In this document: one piece after another, positions 11,663 to 34,834 of the stretch
Position numbering within the stretch: the first letter of the stretch is position 1
How the letters are laid out: each line of letters opens with the position of its first letter
Source: a virus
Length of the DNA: 38,369 nt
Direction: 5' to 3' (one strand)
Virus record (IMG/VR): IMGVR_UViG_3300032245_000650
Span: 1-38,369 of that record
Position numbers and translations under genes: made by a program
Notes under the pieces: generated by a model
What the model was told of the DNA's origin: nothing
The model's input: only the letters and a program-made list of their open reading frames with translations
Database searches by the model: none

Positions 11663-14600
11663 TTATTCTAAAACTCGTTTGGCAAGACTTACAGTAGCTT
11701 GTGCCACAACTTGCTCGTTTGTTCCGTCTGTCTCGTAGACCTCCATAAGAATGTCTCTTTGGGTTGCTGTCGATAGGATGGCATTGGCCGAGGCTGTTGT
11801 GATGTTAAAGGTTAAGTCTAGCTGATTTCTTTGTAACTGTGGGGTTTGTGGGATAGGGGGTTTTGGGAAAACAATCGCTGGGTTATCTGTAAAGCCATAA
11901 CCCTTATTCAAAACATTGATATTTTGCAACTGCCCATTCTGTATTGTCGGAACATCTAGTCTAGCACCAGAACCAGCGGCATCTTGTATTGTTGCACTAT
12001 AATTATCGCTAGTATAATAAGAGCCAGCACAAGTGATGGAAATAGAGGAAATGACAGCCCCCGCTGGCGTTGGGACAGAAATAGATGGTGCTGAAATATA
12101 TCCCTTTCCACTCTCGACAACCACATATTCACCACTTAAATTCTCATCAACAATATAATTAACTTTTGCTGTCTGCCCCCCAGAGGGTGCTGTGCCTACT
12201 GTGGCCTCGTATGTTCCCGGTGCATATCCAGCACCCAAAGTTGTTACTGCTACTGACGAAAGCAGTCCGTTGGGAGCGTCTGGACTTGGTGCTGTCACAA
12301 TGGGTGCAGAGACATAACCAGCACCAGCATTAAGTATCTGGAATGTATATTTAGATTCTGATTCTTTGATAATGTTGGCAACAGCATTCCCGCCAGCTTG
12401 AGGGCTTTGTCCAATTTGTAACGAGTAAGATTGCCCAACTATGTATCCATTAGGGCTATTTTGCAATTCAAGTGTTCTTAAAAATCCAGACTCAAGCCTT
12501 CTGTCTGGGTCTGGTGCAGTTGCAACTTGTGTTGATTGATAGCCGAAGCCGGGATTTTCAATAATTACATTTACAGAACCAGAGCTAGATTGCGTAAATA
12601 ATATTGAGGCTTGCCCACCATCAATAGGGCTGGTTGGAACTGAAAGGGAGAATTGTTGATCTATTGAATATCCTTGAGGCTGAGTCAAAACAGAAACACT
12701 TTTAACTTGTCCACTAATAAAGTTTGGTGCTGGTGCGGTAACAATAGGGGCAGAAGTATATCCGCTACCACCATTTACTACTACAACTTGCGACCTGCTT
12801 CCATTTCTATCTACAACTAAATTTATTTGTGCTGGCGTTCCAGACGCAGGGGCTTGTACCGAACAGCTATATGTCCCATCTGAATATGATGCGGGAACAT
12901 TACTCAAGCCAGCAGATCGAACCAATCCCAAGGTTTGAACGCTTTGGAATGCAATATTTGTGCTTCTGGTGTATCCAATACCCCCGCCACCCAATAGATA
13001 TTGTACGGCGGCTGGGCCGGGTCGGGTTGCGATACTTGCTGGGACAGAGAAAGCCGTATCAATAAAGCCATCAGCAAGAGTCGATGGCATAGTATAAACA
13101 GTAGTTCCGCTAAATTCAAAAATAACTGGGTCGCTAGTCAATGCACCAAGCTCAACTAGGTCATAATTTTTTGTATATGTTGCTGGATATCCAGCACCAG
13201 CATCCAAGACCCTAAATTCTGGTGTATATCTTCCTCCACCAAAATCTGAATAACTAAAAGATAGACCATTATTTCCTAAATCCAATGCGGAAACTATATA
13301 AGATGTATCTCTTCTTGGAATAAAAATTTCCATAACTGCATATCTGGTTGGAATAATGCTTCTATCTTTTGGGACAATAGCAACTAAAGCACTTTTCCCA
13401 GCAAATTTATCGTGTTGTGGGTTTGGAAAATTAGAAATAGCACTTGCATTAGTATTTATACTTGCAAGATTTCTTCTTCCGACAATAGTAACTCCATTTA
13501 TCTGTGCAGACAAACCGGGGGCTTGTGTGCCATTAAAATCACTTATTAAAACCGCCCTTTGATATTTTGGGTCATATTGTGAGCCGGTAACAACAACGCC
13601 AATATCATTATACAATTTAGCCCCAACCTCAATTAGAGCAGACTGTTGTGCTTTTGCAATTCTAGGGTCTGTTGAATATGTCTTGCCATTCCTTGTGGCA
13701 TATACATATCGAAATGTATTGGCCCCATTTTGGCTTATCCCACCAGTAATCCATTTATGATTATCTGGAAAAGTTCCATCAGGATTAAATCCAATTTTAA
13801 GACCGCCAAGGTTAATTTTTGTTGCAGTTTCAGAAAAAGTCGAAACAGTAGCTAGGGCAACAAGACCAAAACGAGCATTATTGTTTCCGGTAACATCGCT
13901 AACATCAGATACTATTGAATCTACATCTCCATAATTTGTTGTAAAACCAGTTTTTAAGATTGGCAAATACGCAAGAATGTCTCCGTGCGATACAGCTGGA
14001 GTTGCGGAATATCCATATCCAACATCACTAATAATAATTCTCCATAGCGTACCATCCCCAGTATATTGTATTGATGCAACTGGTCTTTTGGATGTAGGTG
14101 GAGTCTGGCCTCCATCTGGGTCGCTAAATTCAAGTGAAACCGTGTTTGTATTAACTCCCTTGCAACCCAAATCTACAATTTGATTAGTAAGACCAACCAA
14201 TGATTTAGTAGGCTGAAAAAGAGTTACAGTTGGGGCATTTGTATATCCAAATCCCCCACTTGTTATTGTTAGTGACTGAATAAATCCACCACTTGCAACA
14301 ACTGTTGCAATCGCAGTTCCGGCTGTTGGTGCGGCAAGAGTTACGCTTGGTGCAGTTGAGTATCCGCTCCCGCCATTAGTAATAGTTATTTTATTGATTG
14401 AGCCACTTACGGCTGACGCAGTTGCCGCCGCAATAGTTCCAGTAGTTGCACTAAATACTAAATCAAATGGGCCGTTTGAATAACCAAATCCACCAGTAAC
14501 AATTGATATTGTTGTGACTACTCCTGCGGATATTGTTGCAGTAAAGCTCGCCCCAGTTGTTATGGATGGAGAAATATTTAAGTCATAAGTTCCATTTGGA

Positions 14601-15247
14601 TAGCCCCTACCCCTATTTACAATATCTATATCCACAACCTCACCAGACAAAATAGACGAAGTAAATGTGGCTGTTGTTGTTGTGTTTAGTTGTTGTGCTA
14701 GGTCTGGATTAACTCTTATTGAATTATCCGACAATTCATAACTAGCCGCAATACTAGAATCCACATATTGAAGAGGTCGAGTAATGATGGTTGGCGTAGG
14801 TATCGCAAATCCCGCCGTAATGCTTGCTGTGACTGGGGTAATATAATCAACATTTAATCTAAATACACCAGTAACGATTGGAAAGGTTGCTATGGAAGAA
14901 ATGATATTAGCGGTTACTGGTGTATATGTAAATATTCTAGCCGAACCAACTGTTCTAGATGCTGGCGATGTTACTATGGTTGCTGTGGCTCTAATCGTGC
15001 TGATTGGCTGTGTGCTGACAGCTTGACCATCTGCCAATTTTAATGTCGTAGTTCCAAGTCTAGCCCTAAAAGAACTATCATCGGCAGGTTGTTTGGAACT
15101 AACAATATTTTTACTTATTTGAAGAACATTGATTTTTATATTCCTCTGCTCATCAGAAAATATTGTTGGCTTGCTAATTGGAATAGTGCTTTGTCCATCC
15201 AAAAACCGACCACTTGCAACATCCAGAAATAGCTCTTGAGAGTTCAC
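11663..15247 (-). CDS. Large repeat-rich tail fibre or tip protein
   Basis: This is a 1194-residue protein. Repeats built around a GxGY core (GGSGYSTAP, GGFGYTNAP, GAGYVSAP, GKGYISAP, NKGYGFTDNP) occur from about residue 200 to 340 and again through the C-terminal third. There the unit is about 75-80 residues long: GxGYxSAPxVTAPxP, a serine/valine strand, GYxxG and GGxA. Such repeats are typical of beta-structured fibre and adhesin-like tail proteins. The centre (about 480-700) is a distinct non-repeat segment. It probably contacts the host surface. The gene is visibly more AT-rich than the head genes. Confidence 0.75.
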   Translation of the reverse strand: MNSQELFLDVASGRFLDGQSTIPISKPTIFSDEQRNIKINVLQISKNIVSSKQPADDSSFRARLGTTTLKLADGQAVSTQPISTIRATATIVTSPASRTVGSARIFTYTPVTANIISSIATFPIVTGVFRLNVDYITPVTASITAGFAIPTPTIITRPLQYVDSSIAASYELSDNSIRVNPDLAQQLNTTTTATFTSSILSGEVVDIDIVNRGRGYPNGTYDLNISPSITTGASFTATISAGVVTTISIVTGGFGYSNGPFDLVFSATTGTIAAATASAVSGSINKITITNGGSGYSTAPSVTLAAPTAGTAIATVVASGGFIQSLTITSGGFGYTNAPTVTLFQPTKSLVGLTNQIVDLGCKGVNTNTVSLEFSDPDGGQTPPTSKRPVASIQYTGDGTLWRIIISDVGYGYSATPAVSHGDILAYLPILKTGFTTNYGDVDSIVSDVSDVTGNNNARFGLVALATVSTFSETATKINLGGLKIGFNPDGTFPDNHKWITGGISQNGANTFRYVYATRNGKTYSTDPRIAKAQQSALIEVGAKLYNDIGVVVTGSQYDPKYQRAVLISDFNGTQAPGLSAQINGVTIVGRRNLASINTNASAISNFPNPQHDKFAGKSALVAIVPKDRSIIPTRYAVMEIFIPRRDTSYIVSALDLGNNGLSFSYSDFGGGRYTPEFRVLDAGAGYPATYTKNYDLVELGALTSDPVIFEFSGTTVYTMPSTLADGFIDTAFSVPASIATRPGPAAVQYLLGGGGIGYTRSTNIAFQSVQTLGLVRSAGLSNVPASYSDGTYSCSVQAPASGTPAQINLVVDRNGSRSQVVVVNGGSGYTSAPIVTAPAPNFISGQVKSVSVLTQPQGYSIDQQFSLSVPTSPIDGGQASILFTQSSSGSVNVIIENPGFGYQSTQVATAPDPDRRLESGFLRTLELQNSPNGYIVGQSYSLQIGQSPQAGGNAVANIIKESESKYTFQILNAGAGYVSAPIVTAPSPDAPNGLLSSVAVTTLGAGYAPGTYEATVGTAPSGGQTAKVNYIVDENLSGEYVVVESGKGYISAPSISVPTPAGAVISSISITCAGSYYTSDNYSATIQDAAGSGARLDVPTIQNGQLQNINVLNKGYGFTDNPAIVFPKPPIPQTPQLQRNQLDLTFNITTASANAILSTATQRDILMEVYETDGTNEQVVAQATVSLAKRVLE

Positions 15248-16204: not shown

Positions 16205-17497
16205 TTACTTTGCTACTGCGGCTGGCAGTTTGTCAGCCAACGCCTTGATTGCGTCTAATAATGCTTTTTGCGTATCTGCCCCACCACCACCTTTTGCCTT
16301 TTCTGCGGCGACTTGACTTGCTGGTGTCCCGCCTCGCATCGACCCAAACTTTTCAGATAGTAAAGGCATTTCCCCTGCGGCTTGCTGTGCGGCCACTTGT
16401 TCACGCATATTCTGGGCTGTTACTGGTGGCAATCCTTGTGCCTTTCTTTTTGCGTTTTCTTCTGTTTTCATACTCTCAAACACTTGGTCTTGAGTTCTGA
16501 AATCTTCTTTCTTTACCTCTCTAGCCCTTACTTTCCTTGCCACATCTAGGGCTTGTTGTCCTGCCCTGCTTGCACCCAATAGACCCCCACCAGCTTCTTG
16601 TGCCATCTTTGCATCTGCCGCCCTCTCTGATCGCTGTGATCTAATAACATTGTTTTGGGCTTTGTATATTTGAAGCTCTAGTTCGGCTGATCTTATGTTT
16701 CGTGCGTTGATTTGTTCTTTATTGTTGCCCTCACGATTTGATGCAATAAGCGTGTCGAGAATCTTTATATTTTCATCCCTTAAAGCAACTGCTTGTTTTA
16801 GTTCCTCTTTGGCCAAGTCTACAAGTATCTGTCTGCCACCCTCTGTCTCATTAACAAATTTTAGAGTTTCTTGTGCTTGCTTTGAAATGTTTATTGCCGA
16901 TCTGCTTTGCTTTTCGATTTTTTTAATTTCGTCTGCTTCTTTTTGTTTCAGCTTAACAATTTCTTCTTGCACTAAAAGCTGGTCTTGGGCTTGCTTCAAT
17001 GCTCTCTCGGTATCCCCAACTCCAATGTTTATCCCGGTGAACTTTTCAATGCCCTTCAATATCCCGCCAAAGGCTCCGAGTTGTGTGATCTTGCTTCTTA
17101 AAGACTCAATCGTGTCCTCGGTCTTTTCTAGCCCAGCTTGTGCTTGCTCAACGCTCGTACTCTTGAAAGACATCTCAAAGGCAGAAGAAAGGGCTTTCTG
17201 TGAGTCGTAGTAATCTATGGAGGCTTGCTTGACAGTTTGCCCGAACTTGTTAATCGAGCCGAGGACAGCCGCCCCGAATAGCCCGCCGACACCCAAGCGA
17301 GCTAATGAGCCAAGAGATGAGCCAGCCTTCCCAGCATTAAGGCCAAGGGAAAGAAGGCTTTTCCCTAGTCGCTCTGTGCTTCCGCCAGCCCTCTTGAATG
17401 TTTCGGATGTCTTGTTGGCCTCCCGCTGAAGGTCTTTTAACGCAGTTGTTCCCTTGCGTCCGTCGATTACTACCTCTCCCTCTAACTTAAAGCCCAT
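16205..17497 (-). CDS. Tape measure protein (short)
   Basis: This 430-residue protein has residues 1-90 combining a basic helix, Gly/Ser-rich turns and a hydrophobic patch (LARLGVGGLFGAAVLGSI), the classic tape-measure start. Residues about 120-330 are long heptad helices (QLLVQEEIVKLKQKEADEIK), and the end is Ala-rich. With roughly 1.5 angstrom per residue, the known helix rise for tape measures, the tail would be near 65 nm, short for a siphovirus. It comes after the tube and chaperone genes as in lambda. No lytic domain is visible. Confidence 0.75.
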   Translation of the reverse strand: MGFKLEGEVVIDGRKGTTALKDLQREANKTSETFKRAGGSTERLGKSLLSLGLNAGKAGSSLGSLARLGVGGLFGAAVLGSINKFGQTVKQASIDYYDSQKALSSAFEMSFKSTSVEQAQAGLEKTEDTIESLRSKITQLGAFGGILKGIEKFTGINIGVGDTERALKQAQDQLLVQEEIVKLKQKEADEIKKIEKQSRSAINISKQAQETLKFVNETEGGRQILVDLAKEELKQAVALRDENIKILDTLIASNREGNNKEQINARNIRSAELELQIYKAQNNVIRSQRSERAADAKMAQEAGGGLLGASRAGQQALDVARKVRAREVKKEDFRTQDQVFESMKTEENAKRKAQGLPPVTAQNMREQVAAQQAAGEMPLLSEKFGSMRGGTPASQVAAEKAKGGGGADTQKALLDAIKALADKLPAAVAK

Positions 17498-18203: not shown

Positions 18204-18947
18204 CTAATTATTTATCATCAAATACGCTTGCACAATAAGGCTTACTGAGTGTGTTCCTTGGCTAACTTTATATTGCCATTCAACATCTGATTTTTGAGTT
18301 CTTACTTGTGGGATAATTCTAGTCACATTAAATGAGTTTGAAAATGTACTTTGCAAAAGATCAAATTTCATTGGCCTTACAACATTGTGATTTGTAACTT
18401 GAACATTAAATGTCACATATTTACTATTGGCAACAACATCCCCGCTATAACAATCGACCGCATAAATATAAAGACTATATCCACTTGGGACTGAATACCA
18501 TCCAGCTTGCATAGCCCCAATGGTCGCATTGATTTGTGCGTAGGTTGTCGCCCCTCCCTTTGCTGTAATAATTCCAGCATTATTCTCTTGCCCAACGGCA
18601 GGAGTAATCATTGAGAACCCATTGATTCGATAGAAGGAATTGGTTGTTGAAGCTGGCGTGACTCCACTTAATGTTACATTCTCTGATATTGGATTCCAAT
18701 TTGAATCAAGTCCATTGATCGCTATAATCCCACCAGAATCAGCCGTAACTGTGCTTGCGATTCCCATTGTGCTTGCAGAAGATGGGAACGCATAAGTGTT
18801 TGGTAATCCATCCCAAAGAGTTCTATTGTTTGTGGTTACTTGATCGCTAAACGCAAATAAGCTAACTGGAATCGCATCTGGTGGATTGTTTTTAGCCGCC
18901 CAAGTTTTCCATTCTAAAGCAAGGAGATGATTTATAGATACAGACAT
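18204..18947 (-). CDS. Beta-rich virion structural protein
   Basis: This 247-residue protein has the sequence pattern GIASTVTADSGGIIAINGLD, then NWNPISENVTLSG, then YRING and YSVPSGYSLYIYA. It matches a structural protein type common in environmental phages (dispersed AINGLDxNxNxIxExVTLxG and VPxGYTxYI). Its exact virion location is not established. The ATG begins just 3 bases after the stop of the frameshift product. Its expression is probably coupled to the chaperone. Confidence 0.7.
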   Translation of the reverse strand: MSVSINHLLALEWKTWAAKNNPPDAIPVSLFAFSDQVTTNNRTLWDGLPNTYAFPSSASTMGIASTVTADSGGIIAINGLDSNWNPISENVTLSGVTPASTTNSFYRINGFSMITPAVGQENNAGIITAKGGATTYAQINATIGAMQAGWYSVPSGYSLYIYAVDCYSGDVVANSKYVTFNVQVTNHNVVRPMKFDLLQSTFSNSFNVTRIIPQVRTQKSDVEWQYKVSQGTHSVSLIVQAYLMINN

Positions 18948-18949
18948 AC

Positions 18950-19533
18950 CTAGTGTTTTTCGTCAAGAATATCATCAATTATATTTACTGCGTTAGAGTT
19001 GTGCCTTCTAACATCAATCCCACGATTGACAAGCATAGCGTGTTCTAGCTGAACAAGTTGCACTTCTGCCATATCCCACAATACTTGCTCTGCCGTCCAA
19101 CCAAACTCCTTTGCAAATAGCCAGACGGACGAAGCAATCCCGGCTGGCTGAACTATTTTGGGGAGTCGTTCCCTCCGTTAGTCTGAACACGAGCCTCTGC
19201 AATTTCAGAGAAAATTTCATCAACAATCTTCACTCCCTCAATAAAATCAGACTCGTTAAAATCGTCAGACCAATTCAAAACAGTCTCTCTAAACTTGGCC
19301 TTATCCCAAGCCAGTTTAACCAATTCTGACCTTGGGTGAGTCAAACAAAAGAGACTAGACCAAATAAAGAACTCCGTCGTATCTGCCTCCTCACGAATCT
19401 GGTTCATCACAATTCGTGTCCCAAGGGTGAACTTTCCGACCTTATTGCCCTTAAACATTCTCTCATTTATGACAAAGGATTTATCGAGTGCTTTGTTTAG
19501 AATCTCCTCATCTTTTTGTAGGTCTAGGCTCAT
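18950..19533 (-). CDS. Tail assembly chaperone GT fusion made by -1 frameshift
   Basis: The zero-frame product ends SPK-stop at 19153. The sequence there, TCC CCA AAA TAG, contains the slippery heptamer C CCA AAA (19162-19156) right at the stop. A -1 slip continues for 68 further codons without a stop, to TAG at 18950. The extension is clearly protein-like (ASSVWLFAKEFGWTAEQVLW then VQLEHAMLVNRGIDV), and the GWTAEQVL turn is typical of T-type chaperone tails. This matches lambda G/GT, whose signal is G GGA AAG. The product would bring tube subunits to the tape measure. The extension has no start of its own. Confidence 0.8.
19153..19533 (-). CDS. Tail assembly chaperone G (zero-frame product)
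   Basis: This 126-residue protein is the unshifted product. Its N-terminal part (LNKALDKSFVINERMFKG, then KFTLGTRIVMNQIREEAD) is helical and acidic-basic mixed, of the size and layout of lambda G-like chaperones. The ATG overlaps the stop of the upstream gene as ATGA. It sits directly upstream of the tape measure region, as expected. Most ribosomes should stop here and only a few shift to make the longer form. Confidence 0.75.
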   Translation of the reverse strand: MSLDLQKDEEILNKALDKSFVINERMFKGNKVGKFTLGTRIVMNQIREEADTTEFFIWSSLFCLTHPRSELVKLAWDKAKFRETVLNWSDDFNESDFIEGVKIVDEIFSEIAEARVQTNGGNDSPK

Positions 19534-19916
19534 AGATATTTACTCAGTTTCTTTCGCAGTTCTGGGGATGCGTTCTTGCTAACCAGCAAGGTAGCTTTCC
19601 CAAACTGCTTTTTAACTAGGGGGGTTGCGTTATTGATAGCATCTAAAAGACGCTCTCTGTTCTCTAGTACGGCTCTGCAATAGGCTATGGGATCATCGTA
19701 ATTCGTGATTGCTGACCAGCCCTTTTCCCACATATCAACAATCTTGCCACCAAGACCATTGGGTAGATCGCTAAAGAAGAATGTGACGCTCCTGCGGTTA
19801 TTATCGTCTGCATCCTCAATGACGGCCATTGGCTCTTTCTCTCTGAATGGGATGCCAAATGTAGCTAGAACCGATGCTAGTTTGATGTTGCGAGTATAAA
19901 GGATTTTTTCTTGCAT
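19530..19916 (-). CDS. Tail-module hypothetical protein
   Basis: This 128-residue protein begins MQEKILYTRNIKLASVLATF and contains GIPFREKEPMAVI, FFFSDLP and AVLENRERLLDAI. This layout (TRNxKLAxxLxxxGIPF, ENRExLLD) is one I recall in small proteins beside phage tail genes, but no function is known. It lies between the tube-like paralogs and the chaperone. Codon coupling with the chaperone suggests a role in tail assembly. Confidence 0.65.
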   Translation of the reverse strand: MQEKILYTRNIKLASVLATFGIPFREKEPMAVIEDADDNNRRSVTFFFSDLPNGLGGKIVDMWEKGWSAITNYDDPIAYCRAVLENRERLLDAINNATPLVKKQFGKATLLVSKNASPELRKKLSKYL

Positions 19917-19935: not shown

Positions 19936-20289
19936 CTAACTTATACCATCGTATCGAACTGCCGTGAAGGATACCGTCTCAAAGTTGTCTGCACTACGAT
20001 TTCTAGCGGTTTCGGTAATATAGGCCGCACCAGACAGATCGTAGTTGCTTCCGTTGGATACTGTGATGGTTGCTCCAACGCTACCGCTAAAGGTTGTATA
20101 TGCACCCTCTACTGAGTAGGTGACTTTCTTATTGCGAAACACAACTGCCGTAACATCCCCGCCCTTGTTCTTTAGCTCAACTGCATCAGCAGAAGCAGAG
20201 GAAGAGATGGATTGAATTACCATCCCAGTCTGTGCTGAGGCAATTCCAAATGCTAGGTCTGTGCTATTTCCAATGATTGTAGCGGCCAT
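19936..20289 (-). CDS. Tail tube-like protein, paralog 2
   Basis: This 117-residue all-beta protein begins MAATIIGNSTDLAFGI. It is clearly a paralog of its upstream neighbour: both share the MAAT start, an AFGxA run, TGxVIQSxS, an AVxFxxxK segment, an SGxYxxT motif and a YDG ending at nearly equal length. The compact beta design and position before the chaperone fit a major tail tube protein. Which of the pair forms the tube is not clear. Confidence 0.7.
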   Translation of the reverse strand: MAATIIGNSTDLAFGIASAQTGMVIQSISSSASADAVELKNKGGDVTAVVFRNKKVTYSVEGAYTTFSGSVGATITVSNGSNYDLSGAAYITETARNRSADNFETVSFTAVRYDGIS

Positions 20290-20290
20290 A

Positions 20291-20647
20291 TTATGTACCT
20301 AATCCATCGTATGCGGTTGCTGATAGGTCAAAGCTGTTGAAGCCATCGGCGGCTTGCGAGAAAGAAACATCCGTTACAAAGTAACTCCCGCTTGATACTG
20401 CGGCTGTGTTGCCAGTTAGGGCAAGGGCACCGCCAATTCCAGAAGAGGCAACAGCACCACTACAGTTACCAGAAAGGCTAACATTCCTTTTGAAAGCAGA
20501 AAAAGCAACGGCAGAGTGAGTGCCATTGTGCTTTGATACTTCAGTTGTCTCTGATGTGTTTGTAAGTGAGAAGCTCTGAATAACAACGCCAGTTTCAGCG
20601 GCGAGTCCAAAGGCAACGGAAGAAAGTCCTATACTTGTAGCGGCCAT
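20291..20647 (-). CDS. Tail tube-like protein, paralog 1
   Basis: This 118-residue protein, MAATSIGLSSVAFGLAAETG, is the first of the duplicated pair. It shares spacing with the downstream copy (TGVVIQSFS, GTHSAVAFSAFKRNVSLSG, GSYFVTD, AADGF, YDGLG). The genes lie one base apart, head to tail, as after a tandem duplication. The two copies may make a mixed tube or one may serve at the tail tip. No catalytic motif is present. Confidence 0.7.
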   Translation of the reverse strand: MAATSIGLSSVAFGLAAETGVVIQSFSLTNTSETTEVSKHNGTHSAVAFSAFKRNVSLSGNCSGAVASSGIGGALALTGNTAAVSSGSYFVTDVSFSQAADGFNSFDLSATAYDGLGT

Positions 20648-24276: not shown

Positions 24277-24948
24277 TCAATTTATCTCTACGCTATCCCA
24301 TATAAAGATATTGTCCTTACTGAATGGCTCTATTGTTTGTGGGAAATACACAACCTTGCTTTCCTTTCTAACCCCAGCGGCGACTGCCATTTGCCCACTA
24401 TCTATTGACCAAAACTCATTAGCCCCCCTGATTGCCCTAGCCAACTCTGGGATGCTTGGGGCTGTGTAAGTTTGCAATCCCTTAATCTCAGTACCCTCTT
24501 GGCATAGAACAAAGAAATTATCCCCACCGCACTTTTTCCTTGCTTCAACGATGATTTGCAGGGGGTCTCTCTTGTGTCCTTGGCTTATTCCAAAGGGGGC
24601 AACCATATTATAGGTTTCTGGCAATTCTTTGGCTGGGGCATCATCCAGCCTATCAAACATAATATCCTTGGGGTCTGCCTTGTTAATATCTAGGTGTGCA
24701 TACACAAACTCTGTCCAAGTCTTTCCAGAGAAGCGATATTCTTGGTATTTGTTAGGCCAAATTTCAAGGTCGATAACATCGCCCTTGTTCCCAACCTTCA
24801 CATAAGAAACCATCTCGAAGATGCCGTGGTATTGGGGTAAGCAATCAAAGAATACCTCGTGGCCTTGGTCTGCTAAATACTTGCAAGCCGGGAGGCAACG
24901 GATGATGTCTCCTAGCCTCTGGGAGTATTTGATTGTTTTAGCAGTCAT
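24277..24948 (-). CDS. GT9-like glycosyltransferase (heptosyltransferase-type)
   Basis: This 223-residue protein begins with SQRLGDIIRCLPACKYLADQ, the start of ADP-heptose:LPS heptosyltransferase-type GT-B proteins (LGDxIxxLPxxxxL). A C-terminal half has GANEFWSIDSGQMAVAAGV, the acceptor/donor loop seen in this family, although the length is shorter than the usual 320-350. It could add sugars to a phage or host substrate. It overlaps the GT2-like gene by 11 bases. Confidence 0.7.
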   Translation of the reverse strand: MTAKTIKYSQRLGDIIRCLPACKYLADQGHEVFFDCLPQYHGIFEMVSYVKVGNKGDVIDLEIWPNKYQEYRFSGKTWTEFVYAHLDINKADPKDIMFDRLDDAPAKELPETYNMVAPFGISQGHKRDPLQIIVEARKKCGGDNFFVLCQEGTEIKGLQTYTAPSIPELARAIRGANEFWSIDSGQMAVAAGVRKESKVVYFPQTIEPFSKDNIFIWDSVEIN

Positions 24949-25705
24949 CGGCTACGCTCTTATCGTGTAGGTGGGGGAAGTATTCACTCAATCGAACTGG
25001 GCCGACTGTCTTTTGCAATTCCTTCCACCCATCCACCAGCCCCTTGTAGCCATAAAAATCTTCCTTAAACTCAACTTGTTTCTGGATTGCGTAGGCATAA
25101 TGGTTGAATACTAGCCCCCAAGTTTCAGTCACTCCCCTAGGGACTAGGCGAGACTGGATGTTTAGGCGGGGCGGTTCGTGACTTGTGAAGCAAACATTCT
25201 TTCCCCACTTCCAAGCCCTCATCCACTCATACCAGTTTGAGCCATAGCCCTCCCTAGTAACCACTCGCTTATTTTCTCCCACAAAGAAGTTACAATGGAA
25301 CTGCATCGTTGCCCCTTCCTCTGCCCCCTTGAGGCATTCGTAAATCCCCTCAATCTGTTCTGCTCGCCACATCTCATCAGCGTCCACCTCCATCACAACG
25401 CCATCATCCACGCCGAATAAGGCTTGCTGAATCATCTCTAGTTTTCCGTTGAAGGGCTTGACTTGAGAATAAACAACCACATTCCCGCCTTGGATGCTTT
25501 CAAGATATTCGTGCGTTCCGTCTATGCTCTTGTAATCCTTATGCCATTTGTCGGGTACTTGCTTGCACCATCGAGTGCATCCAACTGGCTCACTAACCCC
25601 CTCGACAATCCTCCACCTCCAAGGAATCTTTAGCTTTTGAAACTCTGCTAGATGCTTTTCAATAAAAGGCATTCCATTAAGAACGATGGTAAAGATGGTT
25701 AGCAT
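24938..25705 (-). CDS. GT2-like glycosyltransferase
   Basis: This 255-residue protein starts at ATG 25705, which lies inside the methyltransferase stop region and couples the two. The N-terminus MLTIFTIVLNGMPFIEKHLA matches the start of GT-A glycosyltransferases, and VVMEVDADEMW around residue 105 provides the DxD-type metal and sugar-nucleotide site. Downstream YGSNWYEWMRAWKWGKNVCF and HYAYAIQKQVEFKEDFYGY are typical of the acceptor half. It would transfer a sugar from a nucleotide donor. The acceptor is not known. Confidence 0.8.
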   Translation of the reverse strand: MLTIFTIVLNGMPFIEKHLAEFQKLKIPWRWRIVEGVSEPVGCTRWCKQVPDKWHKDYKSIDGTHEYLESIQGGNVVVYSQVKPFNGKLEMIQQALFGVDDGVVMEVDADEMWRAEQIEGIYECLKGAEEGATMQFHCNFFVGENKRVVTREGYGSNWYEWMRAWKWGKNVCFTSHEPPRLNIQSRLVPRGVTETWGLVFNHYAYAIQKQVEFKEDFYGYKGLVDGWKELQKTVGPVRLSEYFPHLHDKSVADDC

Positions 25706-26310
25706 AATTGGAAGATGGCCGCACCATTCCTCACCGCCAAATCTTCCCATAGCAGTTTAGAAAATCCCTTGAGCTTGTTGTAGTTTGCCAAGTTCTTGAT
25801 GTCGTTGACATCGTCCAAGGCGATGATTGCCTTCTCTGCTAGGAATGGCCTTACGCACCGAAGTTCGGCCTCACCAGAAAAGGGTGAGCCATCAATCAGA
25901 ACAAAGTTAAAATCTACATTATGCTCAAAGTGGATGTCCTCGATTGCGTTGGTGCTGTAAGGTTCGGCAGATTCAACGCATTCGTGATACCAGCCAATAA
26001 CCTGATCTAGTGGATATTGATTAAGATTTGTTTTATTTGTTCCGTAAAACTCTGCTACATCTAGTTGGTTCATCCAGAGTTTAGGAAGGGTTGCCGTTCC
26101 CTTGACCGAAACTCCACCCCTTGCGGATAGATTCATTGAGTGCCGACCAATGCGGTCTGGGTGGTTCTCTATGCTGAATAGCCTTTTTGTCCTAATACAT
26201 TGAGTCGAGCCATCCCCAGTTCCTCCCCCGATCTCTAGGCCAATCTCCAAGCCCTCGCTATACTTTGCAAGGGCTTTGCCAAAAGAATCGTGAATGGTTA
26301 CTTCTTGCAT
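25699..26310 (-). CDS. SAM-dependent methyltransferase-like protein
   Basis: This 203-residue protein has a class I SAM fold by motif order. LEIGLEIGGGTGDGSTQCI is motif I, SIENHP the second strand, NFVLIDGSPFSGEAEL the motif with a central acidic loop, and KAIIALDDVND a later strand. The pattern resembles sugar O-methyltransferases of the macrocin/TylF kind. In a glycosyltransferase cluster it may methylate the added sugar. The TAA overlaps the GT2-like ATG. Confidence 0.75.
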   Translation of the reverse strand: MQEVTIHDSFGKALAKYSEGLEIGLEIGGGTGDGSTQCIRTKRLFSIENHPDRIGRHSMNLSARGGVSVKGTATLPKLWMNQLDVAEFYGTNKTNLNQYPLDQVIGWYHECVESAEPYSTNAIEDIHFEHNVDFNFVLIDGSPFSGEAELRCVRPFLAEKAIIALDDVNDIKNLANYNKLKGFSKLLWEDLAVRNGAAIFQLC

Positions 26311-26522
26311 TTCAATTTCTCTTCTAAAGCCTTGCGAATCACATAGGCAATTACTGCCTCTTTGTCGTGCTTCAATGCGAGCATCCCGGCTTTGTATAAA
26401 TCTTTCTCTGCCTTCTCATCATAGCTCACATCCACCTCAACCATCGGGGGGACTGGCCGAGCCTCGCCAAAGCGAATGATTCCAGCCTTACGATTGCCAG
26501 TTTTGGCTTTTGCGTTTTTCAT
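26298..26522 (-). CDS. Small basic hypothetical protein
   Basis: This 74-residue protein has a positive N-terminus (MKNAKAKTGNRKAGIIRFGE) and a helical end (EAVIAYVIRKALEEKLKCKK). The last 13 bases overlap the methyltransferase start, and its own start overlaps the large glycosyltransferase end by 35 bases. It may be a regulatory or accessory peptide of the glycosylation island. No family is seen. Confidence 0.6.
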   Translation of the reverse strand: MKNAKAKTGNRKAGIIRFGEARPVPPMVEVDVSYDEKAEKDLYKAGMLALKHDKEAVIAYVIRKALEEKLKCKK

Positions 26523-28146
26523 AGATGGCCTTCCCCTTGTCGTAAAACTCTGGCTTGTTGTGGTTCTTTAGTTGCTCGTCTGGATTGCCCCCTGCAAACA
26601 TAGGGTTCTCGTGCCTAAATACCAAGTCCCTAGCTTCAATCACGCAATCATCAGCATAGGCTCTTTCCGTGAACTCGTTGTCGGAGTATATGCCGTCCGA
26701 ATCTTGGTAGCTTGGGTGGAACATATGCCCCCCTTGCTTCCGTAGCCTCTTTTGCGTTAGGATGGCCATACAAAGCAGTTTGTCGGTTCGGAGGCCATCT
26801 GATACGGCCAGCACCCTTTCGGCCTCTAGGTTGTCGATTCTGCTCAAAATTAGGGCATCCCAGTATCTCGGTGGACTCCAATCATCGCTCATTTGCACAA
26901 TAACCTCGCTTTTTGCCATCTTTGCCCCCTCATTCCAAGCATTGATAATTCCACCGGGATTAACTCTTTTTGCATCGTGGGGAGTGTAATCAACTGCTTC
27001 ATCGTGATCGACCATAAATAACCACTCAACTGCTAGGGGTTCTTTGGCTAAAGCCAGCCACTGCATCTTTCTTTGGAAGGCCAACTGAGGGCGGCCTCTC
27101 GTAGCGTGGACAATGCTTATCTTGGGCTTGGGATACATATTCATCAGCTTGGCTACTTCCTCTTTTTGTCCGTAGCAGATAGAGGACATTCGGTATCCAT
27201 CAAGAGCTTGCCAATCATAGATTGCGTGGACTTGATTCCAGTAATGAAGATTGGGCTTGGGCATAGCCATACAAGCCCTTCCAGAATGCCAAGCCTTCGC
27301 CCAATCCCCCCTTGCGGAATACTCGGCCATCATATAAAAATAAGCCTCTCTGCGAATAGGATTAACCCCAATTGCTTCCCCTAAATATCTAAACCGCTTC
27401 TCGTTGGGTGAACATCTGCCAAGGTTACATAGAAGTTCGTATTTGAGAGTTTCGTCTAAGTCTGGGAATGCCAAGGCTCTTTCCCCCACATCAATCGCTT
27501 TATCGACTTGCCCCCTCAAGAAAAACTCTTGGTGCTGATAGTAAAGATTGAATGGGGTAGATGTTAGCTCGTCTGCTAGGATGCGATGGTTTCTATCTGC
27601 CGAATCTGCCTTGCTGGTAATTGGGCGATGAATCCTAAACACTCTATCAATCGCCAACAGCTTGTTTCTATCGTTTGGCTCAAGGGCTTCGTGGACTCTA
27701 TTCCTCCACCTACCGCACCCCTTACGCAAGGCCATCTCTCGAATGGGATTTAATCCGGCGTTCTCAACCAGATAACGGAAGCAAACAATTTCAGCCCCTA
27801 CTTTCTCTGCTTGTTCCAATCCCTCTTGCAAAACCTTCTCCCCATCTTCTGCCATTACATCATCGGCATCTACCCAAATAGACCACTCGTTTTTGCAAGC
27901 ATCGAGGGCTGTGTTTCTAGCGGAAGCAAAATCGTCTATGTGAGGCCAATCAGTTTTCTTATTCTTGTAATGAATGACTTTAGCTCCAAGCGAAAGGGCG
28001 ATCTCCTCTGTCTTGTCTGGCGTAGCTGACCCCCTAGCCATACAAACAATAATTTCTTCTGCGATGGGCTTAAAAGATTCAATGACTCGCTTGATGTGGG
28101 CTTCTTCATTTCCAGCGATTAGGTAAAGGGATATAGGGATTTTCAT
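26488..28146 (-). CDS. Two-domain GT-A glycosyltransferase with helical linker
   Basis: This 552-residue protein carries two glycosyltransferase-like regions. The first starts MKIPISLYLIAGNEEAHIKR and has DADD at 93-96 (IWVDADDVMAEDG), as in GT2 and WaaE-type enzymes. The middle (about 200-330) is helical and TPR-like (QGQVDKAIDVGERALAFP region). The second part contains KISIVHATRGRP and FMVDHDEAVDY, with a further VQMSDDWSPP acidic site. Both halves probably bind nucleotide-sugars, and may make a two-sugar step. It is the first gene after the capsid-gene terminator. Confidence 0.75.
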   Translation of the reverse strand: MKIPISLYLIAGNEEAHIKRVIESFKPIAEEIIVCMARGSATPDKTEEIALSLGAKVIHYKNKKTDWPHIDDFASARNTALDACKNEWSIWVDADDVMAEDGEKVLQEGLEQAEKVGAEIVCFRYLVENAGLNPIREMALRKGCGRWRNRVHEALEPNDRNKLLAIDRVFRIHRPITSKADSADRNHRILADELTSTPFNLYYQHQEFFLRGQVDKAIDVGERALAFPDLDETLKYELLCNLGRCSPNEKRFRYLGEAIGVNPIRREAYFYMMAEYSARGDWAKAWHSGRACMAMPKPNLHYWNQVHAIYDWQALDGYRMSSICYGQKEEVAKLMNMYPKPKISIVHATRGRPQLAFQRKMQWLALAKEPLAVEWLFMVDHDEAVDYTPHDAKRVNPGGIINAWNEGAKMAKSEVIVQMSDDWSPPRYWDALILSRIDNLEAERVLAVSDGLRTDKLLCMAILTQKRLRKQGGHMFHPSYQDSDGIYSDNEFTERAYADDCVIEARDLVFRHENPMFAGGNPDEQLKNHNKPEFYDKGKAIYEKRKSQNWQS

Positions 28147-31108: not shown

Positions 31109-34100
31109 TTATTTTACTCCTCGTGTTTTCACCAATAGCCTACCAGTTGCAATCCCAGACACAAGATCAAACCACTCTGGGTCAATTTGGGCAAATTTTG
31201 CTGGGTTTCTATGTAGCAATTCCATCCCCATAGAATAGACCTCAGTTGCACCAATATACTTTGAGCTACTACCAAAAGGAGTATCATCATATACTTTTCC
31301 AGTATAATACGCACGGTTATTTGTGTCGAATTCTGGGAAAAGTTCGGCGTGAGCCTTTGCAAAATTATCTGCCGACCCTTTCTCGTATTTCTTGTAGCCG
31401 TATCCTCTCATTGTCTTTTGAAACTTTTCAATCTTTTCGCCAGCAGTTCTTTTCTTTAGAAATTCTTGGCATAGGTCTTTTGCCTCCGCATTACCATCTT
31501 CAATTTGATGGCCATATTCGTGTGCATAGGTTCTGTCTGGTGTATCTATTCTAACCCTTATCCCTCCATTGGTTGATGGTATTGCAGTTGAACTTCTCGT
31601 GCCATCCACAAACTCCACTATTGTTGCTGTTGAGTCTGCCCTTTTTTCATTCCAATAGGTAACTGGTCTTGATAAAGATTCAGAATGAATATGCGGGTTG
31701 AAAATCTCCCTCAACTCCCCCTGCAACTTTTCTCTTCTTTCTTTAACATAATCGATGGAGGCATCTTTTATTGACTTACGATCATTGGAAATTGCAGATT
31801 GTTGTTTTTCTTTTAGCTCTTGGGTTGCCTTGGATAGTTGCTCTGGCGTGAACCCATCTTGGTTATTCAATGACTGTATATCTTTTTTAAGTTCAGCAAA
31901 TCCAATTTGCCTTGCCTTTTCATTTGCTATTACTATCTGCTTTTCTTGTTTTTCAACACTCTCCTCAAGGGAGTTGATTTTTGCGTATTCAGCATCTAGG
32001 ATTTTTCGTGTTTCAAGATAGTTCTTTACATCTTCTGCTTCTCTATATTGCACGGCCTTGTCTCTTAGGGGTCTTGCTTTTGCCCTGAGTTCCTCTAATT
32101 GTTTTTGGGATTCAACAATGCTATTTTTTGCAGAATCTATTTCTTTTTGCACATCTTCGGATTGCTTAATTATTGATTGCCTTACTGAATCAAGTTGCTT
32201 TTGATTGCCCTTCATCGCCGATTCAAGAGATGCCTTTTCCCTGCTGTCGTATGCCTTGGTTGCATTTGGGAATTTTGATTTTGTGGCTGGCTTTTCTTCT
32301 GTTGGCTTTTTTGTTCCCGAGGGCGGTGGGGGTGGGGGTGGAGGAAGGGGCTTTGGTGGTAGCGGTTTTGGAGGAAGAGGCTTTGGGGGCAGGGGCTTTT
32401 TGCCTCCCCTATCTTGTGGTGTTGGCCTTTTGTAGCCCTTCGGAAACTTTCCACCGGGTCGGGTTGGCGTATAGCCTCCCTTGAGTGGCGGCCTACCATA
32501 CCCTACCGCACACTTGTTATCTGGCCCGAAAGTTCCCCCCTCATCTTGTCCACAATCCCTACCAGCAACGAACTCTGTTTTATTGTCCCTTGCTTCCATC
32601 TGCCCAACAACTTTCCTTGCCCAAGCATACCCAGCATCACCACCCCATCCATTCCACGCTTGCCAACCCTTCCCTTGCTCATCCCAAGTTGCACCCTTTT
32701 TATCGACTTCGTGGCGAGTCAGAAAGCTCAGCATTCGCCTTACTGTGTCGGGCGATAGCTTCACGCCATTTTGCAAGTCCCTAGCTCTAGCTATGCCTAC
32801 TGGGGTCATTCCCCTTTGGCTGGCTGGCTTGCCTTCCCGCACATCCAAGGCTCTTTTGGCGGCCTCCCTAGCTCCTTCTGGTGGGGTAAAATCAATCCCA
32901 TCGTATTTCGCTAACTCAATCCCGCCCATCATTCCCTCAATCAGCATCTTGATAGATGCAGGGTCGAGGCTTTCCAGAATCTCTAAACTACTTTTTTTTT
33001 GAGAAGTCCCAGCGGGGGCGGTCGGGGGCGTGGTGGGTTCTGGGGCTGGGGGTGTTGAGCCTCCCGAAGAATCCCCCTCTTGGTCTTTTGCAATCTGCTG
33101 TTTCTCCTCTTTGGTCGTAGGAATGGTTGTTCCAACATTGACCCCAGCGATGATTGCCCTTGCTTGGTCTGGGCTGATGGTCGGGAAGGCGGCGGTGATA
33201 ATAGATACTGCACCCTCTTTGGAAACTGCACCCATAGCAACCGCATTGATAACATTGATGAGCGAAGCGACTTGTGCCCCATTGAGTGAAGCACCACCAA
33301 GCATATCCTCGTCCGAAGGTTGTCCAGCGGGTGTCTGCTCGCCTTCGGTTGGGGTTACTTGTGCTTGTTGTGAATCTCTGGTCAATCCCTCTGCGGCGAT
33401 GTCGGAAATTGTATCGGCTGAAACTTGGTATTCCTCTGCCAAGTCCTTAATCAGCTTGGCTTCAATAGCCCTTTGTCGCATAGAGCTTTCAAAGTCGAGT
33501 CCTCTCTCCGAGTAAATTTGAGAAGCAGTCATTAGGCCGGATCGAAATTCTGCTAAATTGGCTTGGCTCTCTCTACCTAAATCAATAGATACATTAGCCC
33601 CGAAATTGAAAATTCCCCTTGTTGTTCTGCTCCCAACATTGTCCTCAATCAATCCCCTTGCAACTCCATCTGCAATCACGATGTTCTTAATTGGGCGAAG
33701 CACCTTATCATCAAGTAGCTTCTGGTATCTGCGGAAGGTGCGTCCAGCTTGTTGCATCTCAAGGCGAGCAGTCGGGCCACTCATAGCGGAAGGGTCTACG
33801 GCGAAGCTGTAAGGGATTCCAAGCCCAAGGCAAATGTTCCTCAAAAGAATCTTGTGGAACTCGGCGAATGCTCCGCTTGGACGGCTCGGCCCATCTGGGA
33901 ACACGATGTCCTCACCGGGTTCTAGATAGGAAATTTTGCCAGACTCAATCGCCTCTAGCTTAATCGTGTTGCCATTCAAATCTTCATCGTTTGTTAGGCT
34001 TGATAGATCGGAGGCATTGTTGTTATTCCTCTTCACGATGCCAGCTTGGGAGCTTGCGTTCTTTGCGGCCATCTTCTCGAAGTTGATAATGTCGTAGATG

Positions 34101-34834
34101 TCCGTGCAATCGTTGATTGCTGTGTGGAAAGCAGAGATTCCTCGGTATTGGTCGATGCGGAGTGGGTCGAACAAATGGAACGCTTGGCTTGAGGGGATGG
34201 TTGTCTGGTAGGTGTAGAAATCGCCAATGCTTCGGTTATAGATGTCGTAGGCACTTGGAGCACCAGTATCTCGATCAATATGGATTCCACCAATCAAATC
34301 TAGGCTCGTATAAACCTTGAATGGGTCTCCCAACCTATCTGCCTCGATGCCTTGAATCTTTAGGTTGCCATCCTTGTCTCGGACTAAAACAAAAAGAAAG
34401 TCGCCATCTCGGAGCATACTCATCATCGCCACTTGCATAAGGGTTGAGCCAGTATGCCTTGTGGTTAGATCGCACTTGTCCCACCACTCTGCCCAGTATG
34501 CCTCAACCTCTGTATTAACTTCGGGGTTCTCGGTTCGGGCTTGGTAGGAGATGTTTGCGGCGGTATGGCTTGCGAACTTCATTAGGATGGAACGAACAAG
34601 GCCAACATTCTCTGCCAAGTCCCTCGCCCTCTTCATCAATTCTACTCGGTCATAATTGGAACGATAATCTTCCGCACCAGAAAGAGAACTCGGCCCTTTT
34701 CGTTCCCTTGTATATTTAACCGCATCATAGGAAAACTTGACGAGCTTTTGTCGTGCAATCATCCGATTAACTGCCCCTTGCGGGTTCAGAAAAGCAACGG
34801 CTTTATCTATTAAATTGAGTTGGGCTTTTTTCAC
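31109..34834 (-). CDS. Portal protein fused to a HEYGH metallopeptidase-like domain
   Basis: This is a 1241-residue protein, far longer than normal portals (about 450-550). Residues 1-460 fit the lambda gpB portal family (RDLAENVGLVRSILMKFASH, IQGIEADRLGDP, RGISAFHTAINDCTDIYDII, PYSFAVDPSAMSGPTARLEM). Residues about 510-570 and 640-745 (TPVGIARARDLQNG, MLSFLTRHEVDKKG) match modules seen in other phage structural proteins. A proline tract (814-838), a coiled coil (865-1035) and HEYGH (1105-1109, DNA 31508-31522) follow. Glu residues at 1198 and 1205 could be third metal ligands. The C-terminal role is unknown. Confidence 0.85.
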   Translation of the reverse strand: MKKAQLNLIDKAVAFLNPQGAVNRMIARQKLVKFSYDAVKYTRERKGPSSLSGAEDYRSNYDRVELMKRARDLAENVGLVRSILMKFASHTAANISYQARTENPEVNTEVEAYWAEWWDKCDLTTRHTGSTLMQVAMMSMLRDGDFLFVLVRDKDGNLKIQGIEADRLGDPFKVYTSLDLIGGIHIDRDTGAPSAYDIYNRSIGDFYTYQTTIPSSQAFHLFDPLRIDQYRGISAFHTAINDCTDIYDIINFEKMAAKNASSQAGIVKRNNNNASDLSSLTNDEDLNGNTIKLEAIESGKISYLEPGEDIVFPDGPSRPSGAFAEFHKILLRNICLGLGIPYSFAVDPSAMSGPTARLEMQQAGRTFRRYQKLLDDKVLRPIKNIVIADGVARGLIEDNVGSRTTRGIFNFGANVSIDLGRESQANLAEFRSGLMTASQIYSERGLDFESSMRQRAIEAKLIKDLAEEYQVSADTISDIAAEGLTRDSQQAQVTPTEGEQTPAGQPSDEDMLGGASLNGAQVASLINVINAVAMGAVSKEGAVSIITAAFPTISPDQARAIIAGVNVGTTIPTTKEEKQQIAKDQEGDSSGGSTPPAPEPTTPPTAPAGTSQKKSSLEILESLDPASIKMLIEGMMGGIELAKYDGIDFTPPEGAREAAKRALDVREGKPASQRGMTPVGIARARDLQNGVKLSPDTVRRMLSFLTRHEVDKKGATWDEQGKGWQAWNGWGGDAGYAWARKVVGQMEARDNKTEFVAGRDCGQDEGGTFGPDNKCAVGYGRPPLKGGYTPTRPGGKFPKGYKRPTPQDRGGKKPLPPKPLPPKPLPPKPLPPPPPPPPSGTKKPTEEKPATKSKFPNATKAYDSREKASLESAMKGNQKQLDSVRQSIIKQSEDVQKEIDSAKNSIVESQKQLEELRAKARPLRDKAVQYREAEDVKNYLETRKILDAEYAKINSLEESVEKQEKQIVIANEKARQIGFAELKKDIQSLNNQDGFTPEQLSKATQELKEKQQSAISNDRKSIKDASIDYVKERREKLQGELREIFNPHIHSESLSRPVTYWNEKRADSTATIVEFVDGTRSSTAIPSTNGGIRVRIDTPDRTYAHEYGHQIEDGNAEAKDLCQEFLKKRTAGEKIEKFQKTMRGYGYKKYEKGSADNFAKAHAELFPEFDTNNRAYYTGKVYDDTPFGSSSKYIGATEVYSMGMELLHRNPAKFAQIDPEWFDLVSGIATGRLLVKTRGVK

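Follow-up and report, generated by a model that had tools for sequence, protein, structure and literature searches.

Very likely programmed −1 frameshifting at an invariant C CCA AAA heptamer in a putative tail assembly chaperone gene of a phage from IMG/VR

Known frameshift signals and tail genes

In phage λ, gpG is a short zero-frame protein and gpGT carries in addition a −1 frame extension, which is entered from an X_XXY_YYZ site that ends the first ORF. The λ site is G GGA AAG, the T ORF has 144 codons, and the pair is positioned after the tail tube and before the tape measure protein. Bacterial −1 signals of the IS911 type, which belong to transposase genes, combine a G-rich Shine-Dalgarno (SD)-like stretch with a heptamer and a hairpin 5–8 nt downstream (PMC4066793), and stimulatory hairpins in general usually begin at this distance of 5–8 nt (PMC4066793). 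Heptamers of the C_CC.A_AA.N type have been studied in Escherichia coli, where C_CC.A_AA.A is among 18 under-represented motifs that give more than 0.10% shifting without stimulators (PMC4066793) and C_CC.A_AA.G was the strongest heptamer tested, reaching 54% with the IS3 pseudoknot (PMC5009743); these values come from E. coli reporter constructs and not from a phage tail gene. A literature search of partial coverage found no description of CCCAAAA in a phage tail chaperone.

The shift site and the reading frames around it

The DNA analysed (called the window below) is the whole 38,369 nt stretch of IMG/VR record IMGVR_UViG_3300032245_000650. It encodes terminase, portal, scaffold and capsid genes and thus derives from a tailed phage. 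A sequence-only reading of the window had proposed that a short minus-strand ORF is followed by a programmed −1 frameshift making a G/GT tail chaperone pair. The elements concerned are:

19153..19533, minus strand: zero-frame ORF (G) for a gpG-like short product of 126 aa, with its ATG at 19533 and its TAG stop at 19155-19153
19156..19162, minus strand: slippery heptamer C CCA AAA, abutting the zero-frame stop and invariant in 31 of 31 relatives
18950..19156, minus strand: T-like extension in the −1 frame, with 68 sense codons followed by TAG at 18952-18950

The start codon of G overlaps the stop of the upstream gene as ATGA, and its 3′ end reads ...GAC TCC CCA AAA TAG. Reading in the −1 frame after the heptamer begins ATA GTT CAG CCA..., and G joined to the extension gives a 194-aa GT product. 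The TAG directly behind C CCA AAA (19162-19156) lies exactly where the sequence-only reading had put it, and the claimed continuation of 68 codons was found as 68 sense codons running from 19156 to the TAG. That reading had left 3 bases between the extension and the next gene; the gap is in fact two bases (TAG 18952-18950, ATG 18947). It had also pointed out that the heptamer is not that of λ, which is correct, yet unremarkable, since C_CC.A_AA.A figures among the known shift-prone motifs of E. coli (PMC4066793).

Upstream of the shift site, the extension frame is open for just 7 codons. In the roughly 10,000 codons of the window's genes there are 40 in-frame X_XXY_YYZ heptamers; the one at 19162-19156 is the only one that abuts a stop codon, and it also has the longest −1 extension of the 40. 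A −1 frame is open for at least 68 codons at 4.3% of random in-gene sites, and because openness of this length arises by chance about 4% of the time the window alone is suggestive and not decisive. The observation is settled by the relatives, since the heptamer is invariant and the extension open in 31 of them.

Conservation of the heptamer and coding of the extension

Scanning IMG/VR with the fusion, G and the extension as queries yielded 31 junction-spanning relatives (L001-L024, L058-L062, L087 and L091); a 32nd contig, L056, starts inside the extension. The junction-spanning relatives are 57–97% identical to the window in G and 51–99% in the extension. Phage records searched by tblastn with the GT fusion gave no match, and no relatives of G were found in the cellular genomes searched.

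All 31 junction-spanning relatives carry an identical C CCA AAA in frame. Their −1 extensions were inspected for stops, which the sequence-only reading had named as the observation that would count against it, and every one of the 31 is open. The codon before the heptamer's CCA varies among TCC, CCC, GAC and AAC (Ser, Pro, Asp and Asn), always with C as its last base. L060-L062 have a stop shifted downstream by one codon (CCA AAA CAA TAA) and still carry the heptamer. The Lys of the heptamer is AAA in all 26 non-redundant sequences, and the five other invariant Lys residues of G all vary in codon among the non-redundant relatives, three of them preferring AAG. The heptamer has thus been kept in spite of changes in the preceding codon and a moved stop, and with a single codon for its Lys, a pattern typical of selection acting on the heptamer itself.

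The protein-like content claimed for the extension is borne out by its substitutions. Summed over the 24 closer relatives, each compared with the window by the Nei-Gojobori method, the −1 frame has 294 synonymous and 205 nonsynonymous changes, while the other two frames, both of which also contain stops, have 65:346 and 22:366 synonymous to nonsynonymous; the sums cover non-independent pairs and so give a direction and not a significance level. By this pattern, it is in the −1 frame only that the extension evolves as a protein.

Signals around the shift site

Two further elements lie close to the heptamer:

19119..19149, minus strand: predicted stimulatory hairpin AGCCAG-C-CGGG-(9 nt)-TCCG-T-CTGGCT, beginning 6 nt past the heptamer
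19171..19176, minus strand: SD-like GGAGGG, 8 nt upstream of the heptamer and overlapping a Gly-Gly codon pair

The window hairpin (19149-19119) has a predicted stability of −13.4 kcal/mol (z −2.3), and similar hairpins are predicted at the same position in all seven relatives tested, those of L058 and L087 being no more stable than shuffled sequences. In an alignment of 14 sequences 86% of the hairpin's cells are paired, compared with 25–49% when the structure is slid along the alignment, and at one pair both sides have changed in a compensatory manner, from C-G to U-A. A pair-shuffling control on covariation in the same 14 sequences was not significant and did not distinguish the hairpin. 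Immediately behind the heptamer, over the hairpin codons, synonymous variation falls to its minimum of 0.18; the value for the body of G is about 0.42. We consider that the predicted hairpin probably raises the shift rate.

The SD-like stretch is G-rich in most, not all, of the relatives, being weaker in L058 and L091, and GGAGGG is a possible upstream stimulator. The order of G-rich stretch, heptamer and hairpin at this spacing resembles that of the IS911-type signals, which differ in lying in transposase genes, and the SD-like element here is not kept in all relatives.

The tail neighborhood and the identity of G/GT

The genes that flank G/GT in the putative tail module include:

19936..20647, minus strand: two paralogous genes for 117-118 aa proteins, candidate tail tube proteins by conserved synteny and paralogy
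19530..19916, minus strand: 128-aa gene immediately upstream of G, with a 4-base overlap with G
16205..17497, minus strand: probable tape measure protein of 430 aa (weak match to PHROG 4704, E 0.0034)

The two paralogues are adjacent, about 34% identical to one another and both present in all relatives compared; they are possibly two tube proteins. Profile searches gave no hit in support of a tube role, yielding for the 117-aa paralogues only low-complexity-like matches to designed beta-propellers, which were rejected. All 18 relatives included in the comparison have the 430-aa gene at the corresponding position. The gene order, namely tube-like genes, 128-aa gene, G/GT, a basic 233-aa gene and the probable tape measure gene, is kept in the relatives compared, so that G/GT sits between putative tube genes and a gene whose tape-measure assignment rests on the weak match given above (E 0.0034). 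In the window, L007, L013 and L019, a 247-aa gene directly follows GT, and in most of the compared relatives it is the 233-aa gene that does so; this difference in gene content points to gene traffic at the GT boundary. The 247-aa gene (18204-18947) is virion-protein-like, matching PHROG 8198, and has relatives in cyanophages.

The locus resembles that of λ both in having a short zero-frame protein whose −1 extension is entered from an X_XXY_YYZ site where the first ORF ends, and in lying after tube-like genes and before a probable tape measure gene. It differs in the heptamer (C CCA AAA, immediately before the stop, in place of G GGA AAG), in the length of the extension (68 aa, against 144 codons for the T ORF) and in the two genes that, in the window, separate GT from the probable tape measure gene. 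There is no detectable sequence similarity of λ G or T to G or the extension; hhalign against them found no profile similarity.

Comparison of G and the extension with PHROGs and Pfam, whether single proteins or every member of the alignments were used, returned matches at noise level only, and their profile gave no match in the PDB. An AlphaFold2 model of G (pLDDT 77) is mainly helical, with an unordered, low-confidence C-terminus that runs into the junction, and a model of the extension, with a pTM of 0.41, was too uncertain for a fold search. When the G model was searched with Foldseek and VIA-align, no known tail chaperone structure was among the matches listed. The best viral fold match among those listed (E 1e-4) is a protein without a name; the fold matches of G do include one that bears the name tail assembly chaperone, but only at E 1.3. 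Known chaperone families are themselves very diverse, so the missing sequence match does not exclude a chaperone. Given the frameshift, position and architecture make a tail-chaperone role highly probable. The sequence-only assignment to a G/GT chaperone pair holds as far as gene order and architecture go; the searches revealed neither a homologous protein named as such a chaperone nor a convincing fold match. We place the pair as a database-dark family that probably belongs to the known class of frameshifted tail chaperones. It is also conceivable, but unlikely, that this sequence family is unrelated to the known tail chaperones and reached the G/GT frameshift arrangement independently, its signal of SD-like stretch, stop-adjacent C CCA AAA and hairpin staying near-constant while the neighbors were swapped.

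Alternative explanations

The extension might be a separate small gene, translated either from an internal start or by ribosomes that reinitiate past the G stop, with the heptamer incidental. The sequence-only reading had held that the extension has no start of its own, and this is so for its first part: the first ATG, GTG or TTG in the window's extension frame is codon 26, L060-L062 have none before codon 42, and L091 has none anywhere in the frame. Most relatives do have an ATG at extension codon 29, with AAGGAG upstream of it, as a separate gene would call for. Such a start is not common to all of them, however, and a protein beginning at codon 29 would lose VWLFAKEFGW, the most conserved block of the extension. 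As a separate gene would moreover leave the invariant heptamer unexplained, we regard it as very improbable. For a conserved protein segment that lacks a start of its own, frameshifting is the only consistent expression route. Short runs of C and A commonly attract erroneous insertions and deletions, and a mistake in sequencing or assembly, or else a frameshift mutation of recent origin, could in principle have split a single ORF here; this is refuted by 31 contigs from numerous metagenomes that show the identical arrangement, diverged contigs with the stop one codon later among them, and its chance of being right is negligible.

With −1 frameshifting at C CCA AAA thus the preferred reading, slippage could still occur without structural help, the hairpin being a by-product of coding. 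Certain phage shift sites seem to be without stimulatory signals (PMC5009743), and neither the shuffling control nor the folding of the L058 and L087 hairpins favors a selected structure; set against this are the conserved position of the hairpin, the reduced synonymous variation over it and the compensatory pair, and we judge unassisted slippage to be the less likely case, if a substantial one. Alternatively, the frameshift may be real and the pair some other tail-region protein, not a tail assembly chaperone. Phages frameshift capsid and tube genes too (PMC5009743), and G and the extension are without homology or a convincing fold match to known chaperones. However, a small protein, predicted to be mostly helical, with a low-confidence C-terminal linker and encoded after tube-like genes and ahead of a probable tape measure gene, is in the usual G/GT setting, and another identity for it seems improbable.

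Proposed mechanism

A programmed −1 frameshift at C CCA AAA is very likely on this comparative evidence, and it seems quite likely that the locus encodes a tail assembly chaperone in two forms, a short product and a long, frameshifted one. Most ribosomes would terminate at the TAG at 19155 and give the 126-aa short protein. A minority, with tRNA-Pro on CCA and tRNA-Lys on AAA, would slip back one base on C CCA AAA, the tRNAs would re-pair with CCC AAA, and the 68 further codons would then be read to give the 194-aa fusion. The hairpin starting 6 nt downstream would probably boost the rate of slippage, and the G-rich SD-like stretch 8 nt upstream may assist. By analogy with λ gpG and gpGT, the short form would coat the tape measure protein and the extension would recruit the tube subunit.

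Other genes of the window

Several other genes of the window deserve mention. A 1241-aa protein (31109-34834) matches portal proteins over its first 565 residues and a minor head protein in its C-terminal part, and is apparently a fused portal. A run of genes lies between the capsid and tail modules (24277-28146), and 26488-28146 in this run matches phage glycosyltransferases. The 1194-aa protein at 11663-15247 has repeated GSGY/GFGY-type motifs, and segments of it match many unrelated structural PHROGs; relatives share between about 36 and 99% identity with it, as expected for a host-contact or tail-tip protein. The product of 2370-3401 matches ParB-like nuclease and DNA methyltransferase PHROGs.

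Significance

The locus indicates that a G/GT arrangement can be recognized through conservation of the heptamer where homology fails, and it adds a database-dark family to the frameshifted tail genes. It would also correct the annotation of these phages, from which a 68-codon extension without a start codon is likely to have been omitted. The signal is a compact natural one, consisting of a heptamer, an adjacent stop and a hairpin, with a variant that delays the stop by one codon, and it may be suited to studying how stop proximity and structure relate to the G:GT ratio.
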